DNA from: Ischnura elegans
Taxonomy: Eukaryota > Arthropoda > Insecta > Odonata > Coenagrionidae
DNA: 64,000 nucleotides
Assembly: GCF_921293095.1 (NCBI RefSeq)
Contig: NC_060248.1
Coordinates: forward strand, 82,963,243-83,027,242
Reading direction: 5' to 3'
The notes beneath the pieces are model-generated. The model was not told the origin of the DNA. It saw only the letters and a program-made list of their open reading frames with translations, and ran no database searches. This document shows, piece after piece, positions 3,891-55,500 of this stretch. Within the stretch, counting starts at the first letter, position 1. Each line of letters opens with the position of its first letter. The translations under genes and the position numbers were made by a program.

Positions 3891-4490
3891 TATACATGGC
3901 ACTAAAGTGCCCACGGGCAAGAAAAGAGCGCGAAAACCAGTTGTGGGTCAAATGACCCCTAGCCGTCCTTCTAGGTATAACACATCCTAAAAATTTAAAA
4001 CAAAACATTATTGTTGAATTTTCACTAATTTATCAAAATATAGACCAAAATGAACAAAGTCAAATAAAAAGTTTCAAAATTTAAAAAAATATTTTAATTG
4101 GAGAAAAATAAATTTGAATTCTGAAAATGGGTCAAATGACCCCTGCTGTCCTTCTTGTGTTAAACAATACACATTTGGCTATAAGTGTAAAAATTGGAAA
4201 TAAGCCAAAGAATGAATTGTCAATATGATAAGAAGGGACTGAGGGATCAGGTAGGAAAAAAAATGATTTGTACCACTGATTTTTCCCCATAGCTTCCCAT
4301 GAATGTGAACATTCCTTTATTAGACTCCTGTTAAAGGCTGGGTAAATACAAAGTGAATGAAGTAGACATGGTAGTGCGCTCAAAATTCTTCATGATTTTA
4401 AAAACTTGGATCAAACGCAATTTTCTTATCTCAAAATCATTTCTGAGAATTTACAAATGACTCTCTCTGCTAAAACCTTTTGTCTTCCAG

Positions 4491-4739
4491 TTCCAGCTCG
4501 ATACACACTTTATCCTGGTGTTGGCTACTATAAAATGTACAACCTTACAACAACTCATCTTTCATTCACGGAAGCATTTTATAACTGCTCATATGATGGT
4601 GGACACATGGCAATAATAAATTCTGAGGCAGAAGCAAATTTATTTAAGAGTTTCTGGAAAAAATTTCCGACTGGAGGGAGCTTTGTGTACCTGGGCTTCA
4701 ATGACCTTCATAAAGCAGGAGAATTCAGAACAATATTAG
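4491..4739 (+). CDS. C-type lectin, internal exon (N-terminal half of the lectin domain)
   Basis: This exon encodes the first 83 codons of a C-type lectin domain. It is preceded by a good acceptor (TTTTGTCTTCCAG at 4478-4490) and followed by the donor GTAAGT at 4740. It starts one base into a codon and ends with one base of a codon. Visible hallmarks are YTLYPGVGYYKMYNL (first strand), the alpha-1 helix with the first Cys (SFTEAFYNCSYDGGH), and the family signature GGHMAIINSEAEA, then VYLGFND in the core. Two N-glycosylation sequons (NLT, NCS) fit a secreted protein. It joins in frame to the exon at 8054. The exon with the start codon and signal peptide was not found. Insect lectins of this type bind sugars and often act in immunity, but the ligand cannot be read from sequence. 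Confidence 0.9.
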
Positions 4740-5280
4740 GTAAGTATTTAGCTACGTTTATGTATCATACCATACGTGAGATTTAAGAAGTTAATATATT
4801 GATTACTGTTAATCATTTAATTAAATAATTGCTATTTCAAAGCATTGATTTTTTATTGGCTAAATAAAACTACATTCAGTTAATTTTAAAAGAGCAAACA
4901 TAAAGAGGGGAAAGTAGAATAGAGCTAAGCAATGGAATGAATAATCCCATTCCAAGACATTGAAACATTGACCACAAAAATTTAGGAGTGCACCCTTATG
5001 AGAAAAAATCAAAACAGCTTGAAGACAATGTTTTCTAGGCATGCATGTGTACTGGGTCCTGGTCACTTTCAATAGCTTAATGAAATTGATATTTTCATAT
5101 CTGGAATGAAGTCTGCAGGCATGAAGTTGAGGGAAGTGGGTCTCTTACAGAGATGGGAGAAGTACCAGGAAAATGTAATGGGCCTCAGGTAGGTATAGTT
5201 AATTTTAAAAACTTGTTGCTACTTTAGGTACTGGTTACAATTAAAAAAAGTAACTATGCAGTTACTCTTAAAAATATAGT

Positions 5281-8615: not shown

Positions 8616-8900
8616 CACCCAGTGAGAAATGGGTGGTGGAATCCACGTGGAACCCACGTGGACAATTAACGTGGATACCACATGTTTTTGGTCGTGGAAT
8701 CAACGTGGAACCCACGTGGAAATTTGGTGGAAAAATTAAAACAGCAGTTGGTGCTGTCCTAAAACCATTAAAACCTCAACCACTCTATATCTAAACCTTC
8801 TATATATGTGTCTACGATTTTTCATGTGCTCTCATGGCTGCCTTTCCACGAATTATATAAAAATAGAATGTGCGATACATTTTCACATAACTAGCGTGGT
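8616..8900 (-). repeat. Inverted copy of the CACGTG-rich repeat
   Basis: The segment is the reverse complement of 1-285 with only a few differences, from CCCAGTGAGAAATGGG through CTAGCGTGG. It lies about 400 bases after the lectin stop codon. The two units therefore bracket the lectin exons in opposite orientation. Confidence 0.9.
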
Positions 8901-15000: not shown

Positions 15001-18000
15001 AGCCATCGAGTTTCCGTGCGCTTGAAAATTTTCACTTTTCGTTTGATCGTGAAAAATAGATATCGTCATTCGAAAATCTAAGAGCGTGAAATGCGCACTC
15101 CAGGAGTAATAATCTTTTGATTTAGGCAATAAAAAATAATAGGAAACCACCCTATTATGCAGTTATTACATTTTTTACAGCTGTTTACTCAGTTCTATTG
15201 GGGATGGTGCCATAGTGCAGGGTAGCGCTCTGGGTTGTAGAATGGACTGTGGGGGACTATCCCTCAGAAAGGTTAAAGACTCCCGGATATTTGCTTCGAA
15301 CAATGGGCAAAACTTTGCTTAACCATTTCGCTATGAATGATGAAAATATGCAGCAGAACGTTTCTTGATCCGGGTGACGGAAGCCGCAAATTTTCGTTGG
15401 AGATATTTCCATGCAGGAGAACAAATGCCGAAAATGTACATTTCCTTAGTCTCCCCCTTTTATGAGGGTCGTGGGTTTGCGAAGTCTTAGTCTCAGGACC
15501 CAAAAAAGCAGGAATTAGGCCATACCATAGAGTAAGTATATATACTTACTCTATGGCCATACCCTCGAAATCCCAGAGCAGGCACAAGGACCCCCACTCT
15601 TATATTACACCTCTTTGTGGTAAGGGTCATTCAATTGTTCATTCAGTCAGTTTTCGAAATAAATACTTGTTCCTTTCTCAAAAAATATGAACTAAGAATT
15701 GAATTATTTATCTTTTGAGCAGAGTTTACAATTTTTAAATGAAATTGTTTGATAAATATTAACTTTTATCTTAATTTTAGAATTAACATCAACATGAAAA
15801 TTACTGCTGCATTAAATGCATTGATATCAACTGTAGGGTTAAATTTGACGATTCTCAGTGGAATTCAATTCAAAGTATGCAATTTACGTGCAAGCAACAA
15901 TTATGTATATAGCTAATTCACATAAACAAAGCATGATTGACCGTGACCCAATGCCGCTGGTAGGGTTAGAAACCCCAAAAGGAGGGATCACAACTACCCT
16001 CAGAGTCTGAGATTATGTGGAGTGCCTGCTAGAAAGGGTCGAGAAAGGTTGGTGCTGAGAGTGTGTGATTATCTGCGAAACCCTTCTTAATGAATGTCCT
16101 GCAAAAATGCTCCATACAGAGGGGACAGAAGAGTCTCTTTGGCCTCAGTACAGCAGTCGTGTTAAGGAGAGAACTCCACCATCTCAAAAGGGTTAAGGTG
16201 CTATTTCTTAGGAAACTTACAGGTCTATTCCATCAAAACCTGCTCCTATTCCAACATGATCAACTCCAGCAACAGACCTGACGTGGTTAATGTGGGCTGA
16301 AAATAAAGAGTGTTAGATTAGAGGTAATTAAGGATTTTGATAATGCAAACTTTTATAAGTCCAAGTAAGTAACATAAAGAAAACATGAAAAAGACATAGC
16401 ACAGAAAATTATATTATATCTTACCTATGACATCATCCATAGTTGAAGTTTCATTACAGGTTAAAAAATGCGAATAAAAACTTATCATCACAACTCCCCC
16501 ATTTTTGGCCTGCAACAAGAAAATGACGCATTTGTATCAAATAAGCTATACATTATATTATTAAGATATACATTATATATTACACTATACATTTTAATAT
16601 CAAATTGAATCCAAAACAGACAAAAACGTGACATAATTTGACAATAAGATTGAAAATATAGAATTGACCTTGCATTCAGCCAATTCCACGGGTGCCAAAT
16701 AAAGCGTTACATAAATGTATGTACTATAGTTAGTGAAATTTTCCATTTTCAATTTGTAGGCAACCCATGTGTATTATAAAGAACAGGATTTGTAATCTAT
16801 ACTATGTATTTGTAATAATTTTTTGCCTTGGCACCAAAAAAATATACATTCAAATTTTATTTTCTCCTACCAAAAAAAAAAAATTACATATTTACATTTT
16901 TGTCATTGTATAAGGTACTTTGCGGCATCAGGAGATGATGCCCAAATTTAATATTTTTTCCTGTTCTTACATATCGCAAATTTCCTGAGCTAAAACAATA
17001 TTTGTAACTTGAGTTTTTTTGCATCACCCTATTCAATAGTGGTAAGGTGGATTTTGCACTTACTCGCAATAATTTTACACCTCAATGCATGCGCATGGCA
17101 TACATCGAGTTCTTTTTATCTCAATAAAATTTTTTCCACACAATGGAAGACATTTTTATCAGTAGAGCATTAAATTAAAATGTAACACCATTAACAATGT
17201 TTAGAATGAGCCAATTCCATCAGTTCCATATGTCCAATCTGGACATGGCCATACAGAACTGATGCAGATGTCTATCAGGCCTTAGACACAGCCCATAAGG
17301 ACAACTATGTGGAACAGAAGACTTGAACAAATTCCATGTGGCCAATCTGGATGGTTTTTCAAATAGCATGCCCACATCAACCACTAATCATTGATTTTTC
17401 CCATTATTATCATTCATGGTAAGTAAACATTTGTCAGCACAAGTTTTATTTTATAGAAATAACTAAGAAATACCTATATAAAGAAAGATATAAAGAAAGA
17501 CTGCAATAAATATTAATTCAATGTAGGGATGTAATTTGCCTGACCTCAACCAAATAAAAGTGGCTCTGAAAGCTCTGAGAATTTGTACTATTGTATGAAT
17601 CCAGCTCAAGAACTAAGTACTCTAATACCAAAAACTATACATATTAGTCCATAAGGGACTTGGTGTGGAACAATGTGGAAGGTTGGCAACTGAGGGGTGT
17701 CCACATTGTTTTCATCAACCACATTAACCACATGATTTTTTCTCAACAGCCATTTCATCCTTTAGACTTTTAATGTGGAACGTTTTAACCAGAGGGACCT
17801 TTCTTTTAGTACCTATCATTTTATTTTTTTGGTACTCAAACCACTAAAAAGAGAAATTTATGCCAGCATCAGACAGAACTAACAGTGGAAATTGGGCATC
17901 TAGTACATAGATTGGACATAATGGTTGACCAACACTCACCACTAGCTTGAGAATCTCATCCGGTAAGTTGCGAGGTGATGGGCAGAGAGCATGACTTGCA

Positions 18001-21000
18001 GTATGCGAAAAAACCACAGGGGCTTGAGAGACTGATAGCACCTCCTTCATTGTAGAGAAAGATGTATGTGCCAGGTCCACAATTATACCTAGGCGATTCA
18101 TCTCATGCACCACAACCTACACTTCACCATCAAGGAGAGATCCATACAAAAATGAGAGATAGCAGTCAAGTTAAAAACATGAATCTCAGCACTAAGCCCC
18201 TAGTGATATATGTAAAATTGACAAATAAAATCATTCTTCATTATTTATTTTGATAAAAAAACAATCTGCAATATCTATAAGTAATTATTAGTGGTCCTCA
18301 ATTAATAGTGACTCCTATAGTAGTCATTCCAACAATGTAATTAACTTATGCATTTATTAGTGAACAAAGTAAGTAAGCACAAATTTTAGCATTTCTGACA
18401 AAAAAATTGCCAGACCAACCAAAATTTTACTCTCTAATCACTCTCTTGCATGTATCAACTTTTTACAGATATTACTGATTTTTTTATTAAACCATTTGGG
18501 GGAAGCTCAAGGAAGTTAAAAAAACATGGTGAAAAATTTATACATTTTACCTAGCTCAAAAAGCAACTTTTCTGACATGCTTTTAGAAGCCTGATAAAAT
18601 TTTTCATGATCACTCCTTCTGTGTAACCCAATATCGCCTACTCATACTGCCTTCAGCCTTACTATGTAGTATGTTAATTCTGACTAGGTATTTAAAGTAA
18701 CATATAATACTCTTTGCATTTCCCTAGGTTAAGAGTCAATGGAGGATGTGTTAAGAGTAGGAGTGTCCCTAATATATTCCAATACCGGTATTCAACTACC
18801 CAGATAGTAATCGAATACCTAGGCAGGTTCCTGAATATCCATGTATGTTCCTATATACCCATATAGGTTCCTGAGTTTTTGGGGAAGAACACGACTCCTC
18901 AGCTCAATGCTTGAACACCTAGGTGAATACCTTCTAGAAGGGGATATTTCTTGAGGCAAATGCCCCCGTGGGCACTGAGTTACCTTGACAAATACAGCAA
19001 GGGAGTCTGCAAGAATACTGTCATTACTCTCAACCAACTGAGCAGGTAGCATAACACAGGCTATATTTTTTCCTTCTATGGGGAGCTCAAAATTCAGAGA
19101 AATTACCTGAATGCTTTTTTTTTTTTTTTTGTTTTTAAAGATTTAGCTGAATTTTTATTTAACCGTGCCATTCTCCGAAGACTGGATGCAACCTAGTAGT
19201 GGTGGTCTGCCAAGTGATGCCTTATTTTGCAGTCTCTAATTGTGTATGATTTGATAGTTGTAGTGTATTATCATGAAAGATTGTGATTTGACATAATCAT
19301 TTGTGGAACAGTACATACCTATATGGGTTCTCTCCAAACAGATTTGTTGAACCAGTGAAGGAACCAAAATGGAATCTTTAACGTTCATGCACTACAACTT
19401 TCTCATCACTGGGAACAAGGAATTGCAAAATAAGACGGCACTTGGCATGTAAACATAACTGGGCAGTATACAGTCTTTGGAGGTCAGTATGCTTAAATTC
19501 TAATTCAAGAAAATAGGGTAATCTTACTGGATTTTGAGCTTCCCAGAGAGAGAAAAACAAAGGTTCATTAAAGGTACCTATGCAGCCCAATGAGAGCAAT
19601 GACAGTATTATTGCAGACACACTTACTGATCTCTTTACGCATTATGATTCAATGTATTTTATGCTTTAATTTATGCATTTTCTCATGGTCTAATGCATGT
19701 ATTCTTTGAGTGCTCACAAGGCCATTTGCCTCCTGAAATATCCTCCTCAGGTCGGTAGATATTTGCCTGAGCATTCAGTTATTCAGCTGAGAAGTCATTT
19801 TCTTATCCAAGATCCCAGAAAACTACCTTGGTACTTAGTAGCCTTCATGGTTACTCAGGCATCTACCTAGGTATTTGAATACCACCTTGGTACTTGAATA
19901 CCACTATTCAAATACATTTGGCATATGCCTATTAAGAGTGATATTAATGGAGGCTTTAAGTGATGGAATGATGCGATGGCATGAGAAAAAATGTACTAAA
20001 ACTGGGATTTTTGGCATGATGGGTGGCAGAATGGTGAGAGCTTAGTAAAAGTCAAATGGCTTGATTACAAATAAGAGTAGAAATACATAAAAATTAATGG
20101 AGCACTTGATAAGGGGACTATAATAACAAGGTAGTATAACAAAATGATTCTTATATAGTTATTAGTGTCACAGAATAGATACATCAGCAAGTTAATCAGC
20201 CATCAAAAACATAATATGGCAACATCAACAAAAAATTCTAAAAATCTCTCCAGGTAAAGTTATTTCATAAGAGCACCCATCCAATTTGATTCCATTGGAG
20301 TGACAAATATCAATCAGCAAATATGGTTGGTATGGTTGGGTCTGGGTATCAGTCACTACAAACTACCCATACCATTGGTGAGTGAGTTTTTGCTATTGTG
20401 GGATGGAGATGCTAGTTCCTTTCCCAACCTAAACTTCCATTACAGTTCAATCTGGTAACCAGAAAATTACATGAAGAACACATTGTGTTTGGCTCAAACA
20501 CTTTATCTGAGTTTGAACCAAATATATAAAGAGCTTCTAGATGAAGTCAAAGACACCTTCACTAGGCATCTATGTCCCCAACTGAATTTATTATAATGCA
20601 ATAAATAAATAGTGCTGTACCTTGCCAAATTCCGAAAGGCCTGGTTGGTGGTCTTCAGGAAGGGAACCAAATGCCTTCACCTCTCCAGCTGATGAGCAAT
20701 CTGCCCTGCCATGGAGATGTTCATTAACTCATTGATCTGGGAATGATAATTGCCCATGGGAAAGCTACTTTGCTACCTACTATTAAGCAACAAGCTAATC
20801 ACCCAAGAAATCAGTTATTTTCGTTAATCAGAATTGTCAAAAATTCAATGAAAATTCATTTCATCCACTTGATATTAAGAATAAAATGTAAGAAGAAAAA
20901 TGTTCCTCAGAGATTTTGTTCAGGATAAGCCACCACTACTGCGTGAGAATTTAGAAAAACTGGAATCAATTCCATAGTGAACAAACAAAACAAACAAGTA

Positions 21001-24000: not shown

Positions 24001-27000
24001 TCTATTGTTTGTCATACGCTAAATTTGAAAGATTCAATACTAAATAGCGGGAAAAATGTAATTTTCGAGGAAACATTATGTAATATATTTTAAAGTGTTT
24101 TTAAAAAACTTTCTTATAATGACAAAAAATATTTTTTATCATGAAATTTGAGCGAGTAATGATTAAAAATAAGATCAGTCCCTACTTTTTTGTACGAAAA
24201 AATCAGTGAAAACAACTCCTTATTACCACGCTAGACAAAATTAATCAATGCCCTTCAGTATTTCTCTTTATTTAAGTATTGTTAATTGATCCTAGAAGTT
24301 TTTTTAATTTACAACTCTAAATTTTGAAAAAATTGAAGGAAAAAGTGAAAAGTCATTTTTTACAATTTCGTTAAAAATGCTCTTTTTTTCAAAATAACTC
24401 CAAAAAAGCTGGAGATATGAAAAAAATGCACGAGTGATAAATTGTAGCTCCTTTATTTTCAAATATTTTGGTGTGTTTAAATTTTCTATATAATAAATAT
24501 TTGGTGAGATATTGATAATTAAAACCTCTATTTCCAAGGGAGCTCCACCTTATTTAAACCCTTAAATCCCTCCCCTTTCAAAATTAATGACTCGAAAAAA
24601 ATTTAATTCGCATGATCTTGTAGTCAGTAAAAACCCTACAAAATACAATTTATATGAACTTTCTATCATAAAAAATAAAGGAGCTATGTTTGAAATACCA
24701 ATCAAATTTATTTTCGAAAAATTCGAAATCCACAATTCAGAGCATAATATTCCTCATAATCAGCATATTCTTCGTGTATTTTACGTTATAAGCTAACGAT
24801 ACACTCAAATTTGCTACAAAATAAACACACATACCCATAAGATGTATATATACATACACATATGTGAGTATGTGTGCTCTCGCTCACAGTGACCTGTGAG
24901 CATGCATGTGGTGGGAAGACTGGAAGCCATACAGTCTCCGTTTGATTGTGTTTCATGTAATGTCTACATAAATTTACATTTATTTGTTTATGTTACCATT
25001 ACGAAGTTTGTTCTGTTTATCCTATTGTTATACCTTTTCTGTGCTGTGATTAAAATCATGAGAGAAAAAAGTGAATACATAATGAAAGGAGTAAGAAAGT
25101 GAATAACAAGATACAATGTGATACATAATTTTTATTTTTAGGGTAAATAATTTTTTTTGCATTAACCCCCAGTAAGGGTTGATGATTATGGGTTGAAACG
25201 CCTTAAAATTCTTTTCCAAACAAAAAAAATAATTATGCAAATAATTTAAACTAAATTTTACCCGTATTTAGCTTTAAAATATAATTTTTTAAGTTCCAAC
25301 TTTTAGGGGTAGTTTTCACCCCTAAAAAATTAAACGCGCCCTTCGGCATAGTATAGATTTTGAAGAAGGGGGTATGATTAGTCTAATCTCAAATATTTTT
25401 GCAAATCAATTCGGTTTGAAAAACATTTTTAAAGGAGGTATGATTAGTATAAACACAAATTTTTATGCAAATCGATTCAGTTTGAAAATTCTTTTTTACA
25501 TTAACCCCCAATAAGGGTTGATTATTATGGGTTGAAACACCTTAAAATTATTTTTCAAACATAAAAAAATAATTATACATATAATTTGAACTAAATTTTA
25601 CACGTATTTAGCATTAAAAAATAACTTTTTAAGTTTCAGCTTTTAGGGGTAGTTTTCACCCCTAAAAAATAAAACGCGCCCTTCGGCATAATATAGATTT
25701 TGAAGATCGGGGTATGATTAGTCTAATCCGAAATATTATTGCAAATCGATTCGGTTTGAAAAACATTTTTAAAGGAGGTATGATTAGTATAAACACAAAT
25801 TTTTATGCAAATCGATTCAGTTTGAAAATTCTTTTTTACATTAACCCCCAATAAGGGTTGATTATTATGGGTTGAAACACCTTAAAATTATTTTTCAAAC
25901 ATAAAAAAATAATTATACATATAATTTGAACTAAATTTTACACGTATTTAGCTTTAAAAAATAATTTTTTAAGTTACAGCTTTTAGGGGTAGATTTCACC
26001 CCTAAAAAATAAAAAGCGCCCTTCGGCATAATATAGAATTTGAAGTAGGGGGTATAATTAGTCTAATCCCAAATTTTGGTGCAAATCGATTCAGTTTGAA
26101 AAAATTGCAAGGTTTTTCACTTTTATGAGCTTCATTTCCTGGACTATTATGTTTTTTTGTGAGATGTTTCTTTTGTCAATTGTTAGAGGTTCATCATTTA
26201 TGAAAAACTATCTTGCTTTCACGTGCATATGAAAATTTGATGACTTTCATTGGCACCAAGAGTTTTATGTTTATTTTATATTTTAAATACTTGTTTAGTG
26301 TATGATTCTTGAAATCCTCTGGTTTTCAAATTTAATTAGTATATTTTTATACACTAAGATAAAATATTTTCTCTACAATCTCATTTAACTTTTTCAGTAA
26401 ACAGTAAATTTTGATCTTAAAGAACCACATGGCTCAAATGAAAATTTATGCATTCCTATCTACTGTTGGGATGAATAAATGATGTGATGAAAAATATGTT
26501 TAACCAAATTAAATAAGCATAATGCATAAACTGCAACATCATCTACCACTAAAAATGGATTCCATTTTGTTAAGCTCAAGGCAAGTGATAGAGACATATT
26601 GTGATAGCTTTTCGGTTGGCATGTTCTAAAATGTTTTGACCAATTAGAACACCACCAACACCACTCATTAATTTTTTAATTTTCAGTAGTTCTTTGATCC
26701 AAGATTTTGAAAACATTTTAGAGAATGCCTATTATCAAATTAAGTGCAAAGTGTTCAATTCCACCTATGTTAATGTCGACTTAATGAGCGTTTGAAATAT
26801 TCTGGATGCTGACAATCCACTTTAGAAATTTCAATTAATATTATAAATTATACTAATACTCATACTGAATCACTTCCTTATTATATGTTCTTGCCATTAG
26901 CCAGAAGCCGAAACATAGACATATGTAATTGCACTTTCAGAATAAAGAAAAAGGAGGGGAATCGATTAATGATGACCTATGTTGGATGATAATTTTTTCG

Positions 27001-50367: not shown

Positions 50368-52409
50368 TGAATAACGTCACTACTAATATCGTCCTTCAAT
50401 TATACCTATAAAGAATTTGTTGTAGCATTATTTAGTGACTTATTATTCTTTTTTTTGGAGTAAATTGTGCAAAAATATTCATTAGGTAAAATATTATATA
50501 TATATTAATATAATCGCAATATGATTTGACTGATGACATCTCCGCAGTGGTAATACTTGCACAGTCTAAGTTAATAACTGGAAAGAACAGAAGACAGAGA
50601 TAGTCGCTAACCAATTTCAATAGCTTTTACATTATTATAATTGAAATGAAAGAGATATTATCAAATATTATCGATTGGATCGCTGGTATCTCTTCAAAGG
50701 AAATATGTGCACGTATAAGTTAGCTTAACTTCTAGTTATGAAATCATAATACTCGAGTGTCACCGTCTAAATTTGAAGAAATTAAATGAAATCCATTCTT
50801 AACGAAAATATTAACAATGGTTGCCTTTCAATCTCTACCTCTATCCAAAAGTAAATTCCTCACAAATTTTCGGATACGGCGCGAGCCGAAACACAATCGG
50901 GGGACCTACAATTTTAGCGTGGAGACGGCTTTCCCAGCGTTGTATACGGTTCGACACGTTGGTTGTCACGATGGCTGGACGTTTACCTCTATGACCTTTG
51001 TCCTCCATATTAACCCTGGAAGTCAATTAATGGATAATACGAGTATTAGGACAATACCATTGACTTGGGCACCCTTTAAAACCCATGGATCGACACCTTT
51101 GTTGGTATACTATTCTTTTTGCCACCCTTATGACCTTGAATGTGATCTAACTTGGTCGAGGATTGATTTTTCGTAAATAAAAGTGTTATTTTCAGTTTTC
51201 TCGTGTCCGATAACCTAATAATTAACATTTTGGTAAATGAAATTCAGACTATTTTCTATCTCATTTTTTTTTAACATTGAATGAAACCCCATAAGGCAAA
51301 TTAAAATTTTTGGTTTGAACCCACATTGTGAGATCGAAATTGTAAAAGTTTGCTTATACTCAACAAAACTTAGAACCATTCTCCATAAGTATGCCGATTT
51401 TCAGGAATGTTGCTCGATGCGAAGTTACTAAAATTAGAGGTCAAAAATGACACACGACCTGTAGTCTGTACATACGAGCATTGAGGGAGCGGAGACAAAT
51501 CGGAGAGCGCCATGCGGGCGTAAATAGAATTTGCCGGGGCGGCATACAAATGGACGGTCATGATCTTAATGGATGATTCAACATCCCCGTATTCATCTCG
51601 CGACCATATGCCCCGGATCGCCGTGGGAAATCGAGCCAACCGCTTGCTTCATTACACGGGCCACGGTTTTCGGGGTGAAGGCTGGTTATTTGGCGGCGGG
51701 AGGTAGTGGAGAGGGTAAGTGCACGGAGGGGCACTTCATTTACAAATGCCATCAGGAAATAAGAGAGGAAATATTAATGATGTTATTAAAAATATGGCAT
51801 TTTAGGAATTATGGCACAGGCAAGTACCGCAAGGCTGGAGTACCTTACTAAATAGTATTTACCCGCGGCCTAGTTAAGTAAACTAAATGAGGACTGCTTT
51901 TATCATCATATGATCATAATATCATTTTTAGCAAAGAGCGGTATTTTTTAAGGCCGAGGCAAAGTTGATATTCGATCAAAAATGAAAATAGAAATTGTAT
52001 GATCTTCAAAACAGAGTTTCCGTACTTGGAGAAATGAAATAAGCAACATGAATTTATATCCATTCAAGTTGCCTCAGGAATAAACGCACTCTAATTGAAA
52101 AATGCCCAGTAGTTACTCGGTAAAACCTTAGAATTTCAATTTTCACTTGTAATATCCTACTGTTCTTTCTATTTTTGATAATTAACTAGTTATTTATCTC
52201 TGCGTACGAATTATCATAAATAGCACAACTGTTGAGTAGCTGGGTAAAATTAATTTCACATGAAAGAGAGTCCTTATGAAACACATTTTACTAAGAAATC
52301 TATCACTATGTCAGTGAATCAACCCAAATTGGTTTTGAATTCAGTGAAACGAAGATTAAGAGTGATATTGACCCAGCAATTTTGTGCATGCGTAATCATC
52401 GTTTTGCAT
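50368..52409. other. Intergenic stretch with unplaced open frames
   Basis: A 119-codon + frame at 50817-51176 (LYTVRHVGCHDGWTFTSMTF in its middle) and overlapping frames at 51370-51851 match nothing recognised. The composition at 51470-51720 is less AT-rich than its neighbours. They may be remnants of mobile elements; no motif proves it. Confidence 0.35.
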
Positions 52410-52587
52410 TGGTAAATGAAGAGCAAACTTAGTGCATGTCCACAGTAATTTTATTTGGTACGACGCGTTTCAGCGACCTTACTTCGCTATCATCAGGTAC
52501 AAAACGATAGCGAAGTAAGGTCGCTGAAACGCGTCGTACCAAATAAAATTACTGTGGACATGCACTAAGTTTGCTCTTCATTTACCA
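52410..52587. repeat. Perfect 81-bp inverted repeat, 16-base spacer
   Basis: The arms 52410-52490 and 52507-52587 are exact reverse complements at all 81 positions, with spacer 52491-52506. The left-arm inner end plus spacer, read on the - strand, contains the hammerhead-like motif reported separately. No terminal target duplication was seen. Arm identity implies recent origin or gene-conversion-like upkeep. Confidence 0.95.
52454..52503 (-). ncRNA. Hammerhead ribozyme-like motif (type I, minimal stem III)
   Basis: The - strand reads GUAC, CUGAUGA (52496-52490), one extra U, AGCGA, loop AGUAAGG, UCGCU, GAAA, CGCGUC, GUAC. Stem I would be GUAC with GUAC, directly before CUGAUGA and after the GUC cleavage triplet. 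Stem II is AGCGA with UCGCU (5 pairs). Stem III is only A-CG-CG-U; ACGCGU is self-complementary, so two molecules could pair, as known for dimeric hammerheads of Penelope-like elements and retrozymes. The extra U after CUGAUGA departs from the strict consensus. In the right arm (+ strand) the 3' half is kept but CTGATGA is replaced by AAAACGA. Activity is inference. Confidence 0.55.
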
Positions 52588-55500
52588 TTGTATCATTATG
52601 TTCCACAACATCTCGCCGAACACCGTTGAATACATCGTTTTGCATTCTTGACTTGTCAGTCAACATGCTTTATCAACAGAATCCAATGTAAGGTTGCTGA
52701 CAAATAATGTCATTTTTTCCCACTCGACCACAGAAAGCATATTGTGAAACTCGTTCTAAACAAATAACCTTACAAAGGTCTTGATTTTCCAGCGCGATTA
52801 TCAAAATTCTTATCCTTCCATTTCTCCCGACTTTAAATAACTAGCCTAAGTGGTCTCATCCAAATATGGCCACCAAATTAATCTGCATTCACACGAAATT
52901 TACTATCGAGCTCATTCTTCCCCAATTAATTCTTGAACTATCATTAATAAAATCTTTGCCTCTAGTTCCTCCGTTCATCATCTTACTAATAATGAAATGT
53001 TGTTTCTTGTGATGAAATATTATTTGAAGAAATAATAAGGATTTACTTCAAAGTATAGCTATTTATTTCACTGCAAAGTCTCTACAAAAATCAAGACCTG
53101 AGCTGCATAACACCACTTCAAATTTTAATAAAAAATATATCTATTCGAGAGATAGGGTACCATTATGAAACTTGGAATTACCGTTTTAGCATGATAATCA
53201 TTTAAAGCATTTAATTTTTAATTAGTATTCATTAAAAATTTAAAAAATTCTATAGCTTTTATATTTTTATAATTGAAATTAAAAAATACCAACTAATTCG
53301 CTGGAATCGGATAACATCAACATTTCAATTTCAGGTTTATGACGCAATGTAGCCTAATACTGAGAATAAAAGCTAAGCGTTGCAAGTATCATTTCCAATT
53401 GAAAACTTCCCGCACACACTCCGAGGTGTAATTTTTTCTTTTACCATCACATTCACGCCCAAAAAGTAAAGCATCAATGTCATTATTGAACTATCATGAA
53501 TATCATTTTGATAGGTTTAGCTAAAAAGTTAGTAACTTTTCTGTATCAATTAAGGGCACTTATTCGCTTCGTTAACGTTTATTGTCTCCCCGGGCATTCG
53601 ATTGAGAGGGTCTCTCGTTTCTTCCTCCTCTCCTTTCTGTCACTCTTTTGCTTTTTACGCACCAAATGAGTAAGAAAATGTTCCATTGAATTGAAAAATT
53701 GCATCTGCTGACACCACAGAGTCATATTATCTTTCACACAGGATACATAATGAAGCACTAATTATTTATGCAAAACTTTAACCTTTGATCATTTCAAAAT
53801 TAGTGGGAAATGACAGAGTGTGATAAAATATTTACCATGGATACTTATCGCGGATGACATTGATGCGAAGCAAATTATTCCGGGGATGTTGAGGCTAATT
53901 CTGCCCAAGTAAGAAATTATGCATGTGACTCATGCAAGCTACAAGCTCAGAATTCAGATCGCGTGCCAAAACCATTCAGCCCGAGCTTTTGCTGAGGCTT
54001 ACCAGGGTTTTTGAGCCAATGGTGCTTCACTGTGGGTCATGCAGCGACTACTATCCATACAAAAAGTCAAGCTACCTGACAATGAAGAATTTTATCTCGG
54101 TCACTTGTTCTTTCAACACAAATAAATTGATACAAAATAAAATGTATTCTTCCATCTTAAAATATTAATTAGTTGTTCAAATAACTAAATTTATGATTCA
54201 AAAAGTTTCCAACTTATGAAAAATTCACGATTTCTATCCCTTTCTAGATAATTATCAATTATAACTTAGGAAAGCTATATTTTTTAAAGCCAAATAGCAT
54301 TATTTTCGTTGAAAAAGGCGTTGTCATAAAAATATAAAAGCCACTCATTTTAGTTTGCTCTACTATGTAGATTAATAAGTTACAGTCCAAAGATACCATA
54401 AATATTCGATTATCCCAATTTCTATTGTTAGGACATTGTCTTTACACGCACAAAAAAATGCAGACTCCCAAATCAAAGAAAATAGGAAGATTTGTGAAAC
54501 TACTATCGCGAGGGCTAAGTTCGATTCTGCCTTTCGTGTTGAACTAATGCTCTAGTTCGTCACCAGTATTTGAAATTAAGAACTGATATATTTGACAAAG
54601 ATATAGAGGATGCATAAAGCAAGCCGCCAGCTTCAATATATTGGTTAATTCTAAGCAAATGAAATCACAGTTGACGAAAGACCAGGGTTAGAGATACATA
54701 TTTTCCTAGACAAGAGTCCAGTAAGAATTAAAGTTTACCTATTACTTTAATACGATATATATACGATATACGGAATATTGTAAGCAAATCATCATCATCA
54801 AGTGGTTTTCTGCCCATAATCAGGTCCCCAGCACCAATGCTGCTTCAACCTCCAAAGTCTGCAGGCATCCGCAGTCTCCCAGTCATCCGCATTGGTTTCT
54901 ACATGGTTAAAACTTAGATAACAAAGATTTTATGCATATAGGCCATGACTATAACTTAAAAATAGCATTTATATTTCTTAATCTGGAGAGGTTCTTTTTG
55001 TTTGATCCACAAACAACTATGTGCATCGTTACGATGCATGGAAGCGATAAAAAAGGCACCGCAGAGTTAATTAAATTTGGGAAGAGGGAAAATACACTCT
55101 TTCACTGCGTCAGTAGTGTTTAAATCAAAATTTTTGCGTAGTATCACGCTAAACATAAATCGATTATTTCATATTTTACACGTATGGAGTCAATAGTCTT
55201 ATTTTCTCCCTTCTTCACGCATTACAACGACTCATCTCTGCCACCTAATACCCACAGTAGGAAAAAAAATTCCCCACTCACCCGAAGTGGGCCAAAACAA
55301 ACCATTCTGATGAGAAAGCAAGCTATACAAATTTAAATGGCAGATACCAGATTTGATGAAGTACAATGCATAATTTTTATGCTAGATTAATTATTAATTT
55401 ACGTGACCGATAAATCCTATTTGATTCACAACTTCCTAATGACTTGCTAGTAGAGTTGGAGCACTCATGAGGGAAAACAGGAGATAAAACTATATACTAA

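Follow-up and report, generated by a model that had tools for sequence, protein, structure and literature searches.

A palindrome in a 64-kb window of the Ischnura genome (the window being the whole 64,000-nt stretch that was analyzed) raises two questions: how two identical sequences came to lie head to head, and whether the hammerhead-like motif legible on the minus strand is that of a ribozyme. A sequence-only reading had taken the palindrome for a head-to-head pair of ends from a Penelope-like element (PLE). Here, the locus is read alongside its relatives in the source genome.

Anatomy of the palindrome and its genomic copies

The palindrome described at the outset is confirmed, with arms identical over 82 bp (52410-52491 and 52506-52587) around a 14-nt centre. 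A repeat search of the window returned the same inverted repeat as 85 nt at 99%. The whole insertion is larger than first reported: it spans 52397-52646, with a tail on the right followed by a 14-bp target-site duplication. Its parts are listed below; leader positions, inner ends included, are counted relative to the first base of CTGATGA.

52397..52410 (+): left target-site duplication, CATCGTTTTGCATT, a 14-bp direct repeat flanking the insertion
52411..52504 (-): inverted arm, PLE leader from ~+88 (outer) to -8 (inner), by alignment to the L046 reference
52453..52504 (-): hammerhead-like motif, by sequence reading, descriptor match and pairing across families
52504-52497 / 52461-52453 (-): stem I, UUU-U-GUAC / GUAC-C-AAAU, by sequence reading
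52496-52490 (-): box CUGAUGA, with an extra U at 52489, by sequence reading
52488-52484 / 52476-52472 (-): stem II, with GAAA at 52471-52468, by sequence reading
52468-52463 (-): self-complementary stem III, ACGCGU, with C17 at 52462, by sequence reading
52462/52461 (-): predicted cut, from the hammerhead layout
52505 (no strand): single base at the centre join that fits neither arm, by alignment to L046
52506..52587 (+): sense arm of the PLE leader, starting at +5 inside the box, by exact repeat and L046 alignment
52588..52636 (+): PLE tail, ~+87 to +135, by a 131-nt 100% match to L046 at 52506-52636
52633..52646 (+): right target-site duplication, CATCGTTTTGCATT, a 14-bp direct repeat

The inverted arm has its inner end near the presumed mRNA start and carries the hammerhead motif, complete but for the outermost A of stem I. 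Truncation of the sense arm leaves it without a complete motif. The earlier description of one copy with a full core is thereby upheld; the second copy, in which CTGATGA had seemed to be replaced, is instead an arm that begins 5 nt inside the box. The tail includes the first ORF codons (the ORF start being read in L044 and L077), and its final bases overlap the right target-site duplication. Since the window arms show no private change in 85 shared columns, the outer junction excepted, the window copy is young. A transcript of the whole palindrome is predicted to fold into one long hairpin (-155.7 kcal/mol) with almost nothing left of ribozyme stem II; the copy is probably an inert product rather than a working ribozyme locus. 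Because of the long hairpin, the palindrome matches Rfam microRNA models (E values down to 1.6e-12). A microRNA was rejected, as these matches score far below gathering (best, 59 versus 200 bits).

The palindrome was searched against the source genome (1.72 Gb in 110 contigs), which gave 648 first-look candidates, 40 scored places and 84 matches. Palindromic copies occupy 37 of the 40 scored places (the window copy and L008-L043), and the other 3 (L044-L046) are longer relatives. The 36 palindromes were selected by palindrome similarity, which biases arm lengths in that set. L022 has the target duplication of L014, and L032 has that of L027, so 35 of the 37 palindromes were counted as separate insertions.

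In these copies, a conserved tail of ~45 bp prolongs the arm on one side only, and the target-site duplication sits outside the tail and outside the opposite arm. Among the 33 separate copies scored (L029 and L041 were left out), the duplication has a median length of 12 bp and measures at least 8 bp in 31 and at least 10 bp in 26, compared with a maximum of 9 bp in 1056 mismatched flank pairs. The centre join is variable and includes overlaps, blunt joins and inserts of up to 21 nt. By eye, there are ~30 distinct joins in the 35 insertions, with L012/L026, L015/L035 and L031/L042 alike; the insert at the L024 join is a repeat of arm sequence.

At the outer ends, 33 of the 35 palindromes combine one tail end (~+136) with one end at ~+91 (range, ~+81 to +102). 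The exceptions to this one-of-each rule are L029, which is without a tail, and L041, in which one arm is truncated. Inner ends cluster at -13 to -7 of the box: 21 of 35 inverted arms and 17 of 35 sense arms end there, as does at least one arm in 29 palindromes and both arms in 9. Apparent extensions past -13 in L033 and L040 look like alignment ambiguity at the palindromic centre. The base at +84 is identical between arms in all 32 separate copies covered by both (16 C/C and 16 T/T), and the same allele in both arms implies that the templates came from one locus, or from one molecule. With arm ends at ~-9, +91 and +136, and none at the predicted cleavage site at +35, hammerhead cleavage was rejected as the source of the arm ends.

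Elsewhere in the window, the only longer exact inverted repeat is a 190-bp pair at 28-217 and 8683-8872, 8.5 kb apart. It is accompanied by a 185-bp tandem at 98-467 and may represent the ends of another mobile element. The window also holds a 340-bp tandem repeat (25149-26103; 2.8 copies, 93%), a membrane dipeptidase exon on the minus strand (17844-18116; Peptidase_M19, E = 3.5e-24) and a C-type-lectin-like exon on the plus strand (4361-4786), which at 17.7 bits lies below the Pfam cut-off of 22.6.

The parent Penelope-like element and its longer insertions

The sequence upstream of the leader in L046, a relative without inversion, was used as a query and gave 198 candidates, of which 40 were scored. 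All 40 scored places matched, and 30 are given as loci; this query favors longer arms. At a locus other than the window, L077, a unit of 2705 nt is arranged in partial tandem and contains an uninterrupted ORF of 863 aa. The leader lies directly upstream of this ORF and again after it. The ORF matches RVT_1 above the cut-off (E = 1.2e-12), while its matches to GIY-YIG (E = 0.0017; 19.0 bits, curated cut-off of 22.6) and, at 722-799, to TIGR01453 (group I intron endonuclease; E = 8.6e-5; 22.7 bits, cut-off of 56.05) lie below theirs. The motifs GLSMGSPLSP, YVDD and GIY..YVGQT are legible in it. A 103-aa ORF piece of L046 was uninformative in Pfam and protein searches.

The element has an RT ORF with a C-terminal GIY-YIG, pLTRs in partial tandem or inverted, and a tail with a short target-site duplication. 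Judged by its sequence, the source is a PLE of the Penelope/Poseidon type, a clade assigned by layout (RT, then GIY-YIG). The leader that forms the palindrome also flanks the RT/GIY-YIG ORF of 863 aa, in agreement with the head-to-head pair of PLE ends proposed by the sequence-only reading. That reading had asked whether genome copies accompany Penelope-type reverse transcriptases or form tandem retrozyme units; the former association was found, and the latter units were not seen among the copies mapped.

With A(-9) taken as r1, the first ATG of the ORF is r107, 97 nt past the first base of the hammerhead box, and the tail contains the start of the PLE ORF. A TATA box, TATATATA, is located 31 nt ahead of A(-9). 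Given this spacing, the natural reading of the inner limit of the arms is that it corresponds to a putative mRNA 5' end.

In the mapped longer copies, L044 excepted, the ends lie at r92-111 or r143-151. One end of each kind is present in 10 of the 11 separate longer head-to-head insertions with both ends visible (L045, L050, L054, L063, L067, L068, L071, L074, L078 and L079); L044, with ends at r193 and r99, is the exception. The target duplications of these 11 insertions measure 10-15 bp except in L078, where the length is 8 bp, and 110 mismatched pairs gave at most 8 bp; the L078 duplication is no better than this null, so its ends are not tied by it. An arm ending at the presumed start occurs only in L045, L050 and L044, the inner ends of the others lying elsewhere. 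In L045 and L050, the leader arm ends at r-4 and is joined to a partner that continues upstream or into the ORF, and in L044 both arms end at r2. The L044 insertion (L044:2728-3065), which begins past the usual tail (r193), consists of three leader pieces and has a 13-bp target duplication.

Proposed two-strand priming and its alternatives

The palindrome is quite probably a small, young, noncoding PLE insertion, made when the two target strands, each nicked, primed cDNA synthesis on RNAs from one locus. In such an event, a TATA promoter would start the PLE mRNA 9-12 nt ahead of a minimal hammerhead motif in the 5' leader. The PLE enzyme would cut the target with a stagger of ~12 bp. Each target strand would then prime reverse transcription inside the RNA, close to where the ORF begins, with the tail site (~+136) used by one strand and a site ~45 nt upstream of it used by the other. 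On RNA beginning at its own start, the cDNAs would run off after ~100-145 nt, or stop short, and the joining of the two cDNA ends would create a head-to-head palindrome of ~220 bp. Read-through RNA from a tandem copy would give longer arms with ORF sequence. L045 and L050 pair a run-off arm with a read-through arm, which favors two template molecules. We infer that both strands were primed in the same event in vivo, that the cDNA ends were then joined, and that the presumed start is the transcription start. Two-strand priming alone does not account for the use of each start site once and only once.

In LINE-1 twin priming, a 5' inversion with a variable join results when a pair of target-primed cDNAs come together. 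In the Ischnura PLE, by contrast, both cDNAs would span one leader from two fixed starts, producing a palindrome. An Anolis PLE protein was found to cut both strands of its target in vitro and to extend each of them (Frangieh et al., PMC11167929). Reverse transcription by this PLE begins at two sites within the RNA, and these delimit the tail; its ribozyme cut only with the protein present and was dispensable for insertion in vitro (PMC11167929).

For the PLEs of Adineta vaga, which are described in the available part of PMC3846280 as having inverted pLTRs, a one-sided tail, 8-10 bp duplications and palindromic junctions, the authors of that study favored self-priming on an antisense template. 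In the snap-back process proposed there for the rotifer palindromes, one cDNA folds back and copies itself, so that arms sharing the +84 allele come for free, and palindromes are usual at the inverted junctions of the rotifer elements (PMC3846280, as available in part). However, snap-back predicts a tail-bearing inverted arm complementary to the adjoining end, whereas the second arm observed here starts at a fixed site beside the target. Neither arm is consistently the longer (the inverted arm in 13 insertions, the sense arm in 10, and equal within 1 nt in 12 of the 35), and several joins have no loop. Snap-back also cannot yield the L045 and L050 joins, in which the neighbor of a leader-only arm is upstream-of-leader or ORF sequence, and on these joins self-priming was rejected as the general route. 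We regard snap-back as an unlikely origin of the palindromes; the insertion record favors two-strand priming over self-priming.

Repeated copies with perfect inverted arms are also what a MITE or foldback DNA transposon with long terminal inverted repeats would leave, and the arm ends of the window copy carry an apparent CATTG repeat. Yet only 4 of the 36 rows that could be compared show a 5-bp repeat at the arm ends, the longer shared stretches of ~12 bp lie outside the one-sided tail, the centre is variable, and the arms belong to the PLE (the L077 unit). A DNA transposon of this kind is scarcely credible and was rejected, there being no fixed-length duplication directly beside both inverted repeats. 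A retrozyme, that is, a nonautonomous tandem element producing circRNA with a type I hammerhead, would account for the ~220-bp size and the type I layout, both of which resemble animal retrozymes as described in the available part of PMC7229834. This origin is very improbable, as the arms end away from the cleavage site, the sequence is PLE leader, and no ~220-bp head-to-tail array was seen among the copies mapped, where direct tandem units bounded by hammerhead cleavage would mark an animal retrozyme.

The palindrome belongs to a system of known kind, a PLE with a minimal hammerhead. With Anolis PAc (PMC11167929) and Adineta vaga Pen (PMC3846280), as far as the available parts of these sources describe them, the element shares an ORF with RT and C-terminal GIY-YIG, a pLTR partial tandem, a TATA in the pLTR, an optional tail, inverted pLTRs with a short target-site duplication, a hammerhead at the pLTR/ORF boundary, and reverse transcription start sites bounding the tail. 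It differs from what is described there in that 37 of 40 scored places (a biased sample) are just two head-to-head leaders, and in features that recur over dozens of insertions: outer ends that follow the one-of-each rule, arms whose inner ends lie at the presumed mRNA start, and one allele carried by both arms. The tail of ~45 nt compares with 30-40 in those elements, and the duplication of ~12 bp compares with 8-10 bp in the rotifer (PMC3846280), again by the parts available. Among the papers listed by our literature search, we met no account of the one-of-each rule and leader run-off as traces of two-strand priming, and both the PLE integration route and the role of the ribozyme are left open in the available portions of PMC3846280, PMC7761336 and PMC11167929. 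Dozens of tiny insertions with readable ends, join and duplicated target constitute a natural record of single integration events.

The hammerhead motif across leader families

The minus strand of the window reads GUAC-CUGAUGA-U-AGCGA-7 nt-UCGCU-GAA-ACGCGU-C-GUAC, and the type I order is present as the sequence-only reading had described it. Nothing else in the 64-kb window fits a relaxed hammerhead descriptor. In 60 Mb of DNA simulated with a first-order model, that descriptor was matched 5 times, a chance rate of 0.005 per 64 kb. When much sequence is scanned, a single match could still be due to chance, and comparison among families says more. Within the palindrome's own family, the layout is that of a minimal type I hammerhead (box 3-9, GAAA, H17 and stem order) with CUGAUGA, GAAA and GUC, the departure being the extra U. 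Stem I of this family (AUUU-U-GUAC/GUAC-C-AAAU) pairs at 8 of 9 positions, for which the chance by composition is 0.0007.

The Rfam hammerhead models, a check that had been named beforehand as able to overturn the proposal, gave no match in the entire window at gathering thresholds, and at E <= 10 none around the palindrome, in six related loci or in one nonpalindromic relative. The unconstrained fold of a 56-nt window piece around the motif is not a hammerhead (z, -0.72). For the family's leader, the hammerhead-like fold (-6.5 kcal/mol) falls 3.3 kcal/mol short of the best one (-9.8), which includes stems I and II but also pairs core bases. Variation among copies of this family is 1.5% in hammerhead columns versus 1.9% in other columns, which is no difference.

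To extend the comparison, a protein search retrieved PLE families at 41-48% identity, and 20 of their leaders plus the palindrome's own gave 21 loci. A strict descriptor matched 3 of the 21 (L095, L096 and the own family), with none in antisense and 1 in 4200 shuffles. Allowing one box mismatch with a self-complementary stem III adds L083, for 4 of 21, with 0 of 21 in antisense and 0 in 6300 shuffles. In both descriptor matches outside the own family, the stem II sequences differ, as do stems I and III in L096; the extra T is found in all three leaders compared with the own family. A signature consisting of GAA, a self-complementary stretch of 6-10 nt and H occurs in 7 of 12 representatives and in none in antisense (null mean, 0.69; maximum, 4 in 2000); it is absent from the other five of these divergent representatives (L084, L091, L097, L100 and L101).

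In all, the hammerhead layout is kept in 8 of 13 PLE leader types (the 7 representatives and the own family), and in these eight, pairing that survives sequence change supports the minimal hammerhead with a tiny self-complementary stem III pointed out at first. The extra U, originally noted as a caveat, is indeed there, and it follows the box in all 8 of these leader types. By eye, the boxes of the eight are CUGAUGA in two, CAGAUGA in one, UUGAUAA in three and UUGAAAA in two. The last two forms, with U3 and A8, are found in five of L083, L086, L087, L089, L092, L096 and L098. Positions 3 and 8 pair in the active hammerhead ribozyme. Three of the eight leader types have C-G at these positions and five have U-A, and none shows a mispair. 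In the Anolis PLE work, C3G and G8C each abolish cleavage and together partly restore it (PMC11167929). An extra core nucleotide is on record for a viroid hammerhead (de la Pena and Flores 2001, as cited in the available part of PMC6155905).

Covariation was assessed in a hand-made alignment of 8 hand-cut rows, with loops omitted, the 5' box placed by eye and 5 of the 13 leader types absent. In this alignment, 95% of cells pair (shuffled mean, 72%), double-sided changes are found in 20 cells (shuffled mean, 6.9), and 0 of 500 shuffles were as high on either count; slid controls pair at no more than 59%. Two measures were weaker: 6 pairs carry a double change, a number reached by 65 of 500 shuffles, and there are 14 further pair types, a number reached by 38 of 500. 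L087 has 2 bp in stem I and a stem II mismatch, and L092 has 3 bp in stem I. A double change in stem II of L031 was left uncounted, because both changes could be CpG decay. By these comparisons the putative hammerhead motif is supported, with stems I and II appearing to covary across families, and the leader may act as a ribozyme, possibly as a dimer.

The opposing view is that the resemblance arose by chance or is a relic, in a PLE leader without ribozyme function. It accommodates the lack of an Rfam match, the inserted U and boxes such as UUGAAAA that depart from the textbook core, and the five of 12 divergent representatives in which the signature is missing; across many windows, moreover, the chance rate of the relaxed descriptor is not negligible. 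Against it, the motif recurs with different stem sequences in two further families whose proteins are 42-48% identical, and the descriptor, signature and pairing counts (4 of 21, 7 of 12 and 95% paired) exceed their respective controls. We consider chance or relic status rather unlikely.

The candidate hammerhead shares with the minimal type I PLE hammerheads (Cervera and de la Pena 2014; Lunse et al. 2017; both via the available part of PMC7761336) the CUGANGA box, GAAA and location in the pLTR, together with a short or absent stem III and stem III self-complementarity of the kind that suits dimers. It differs from those described there by the extra U in 8 of 8 leader types and by U3/A8 in place of C3/G8 in 5 of 8. 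Such variants did not turn up among the papers listed by our literature search; they may already be known from the key papers on PLE hammerheads. The leader families provide comparative evidence for a hammerhead variant with a swapped core pair 3-8.

Overall, the interpretation first made from the letters of this locus was largely right. The combined proposal, in which palindromes would arise by two-strand priming from two fixed sites, one per strand, on own-promoter mRNAs of a single source locus, and in which the leaders would also encode extra-U hammerheads with C3-G8 changed to U3-A8, has in our estimate about an even chance of holding in full. In L094 (380-521), a copy of the L096 family, a palindrome is centred inside stem III (CCATGG CCATGG), and its head-to-head join lies a few nucleotides upstream of the predicted cleavage site.
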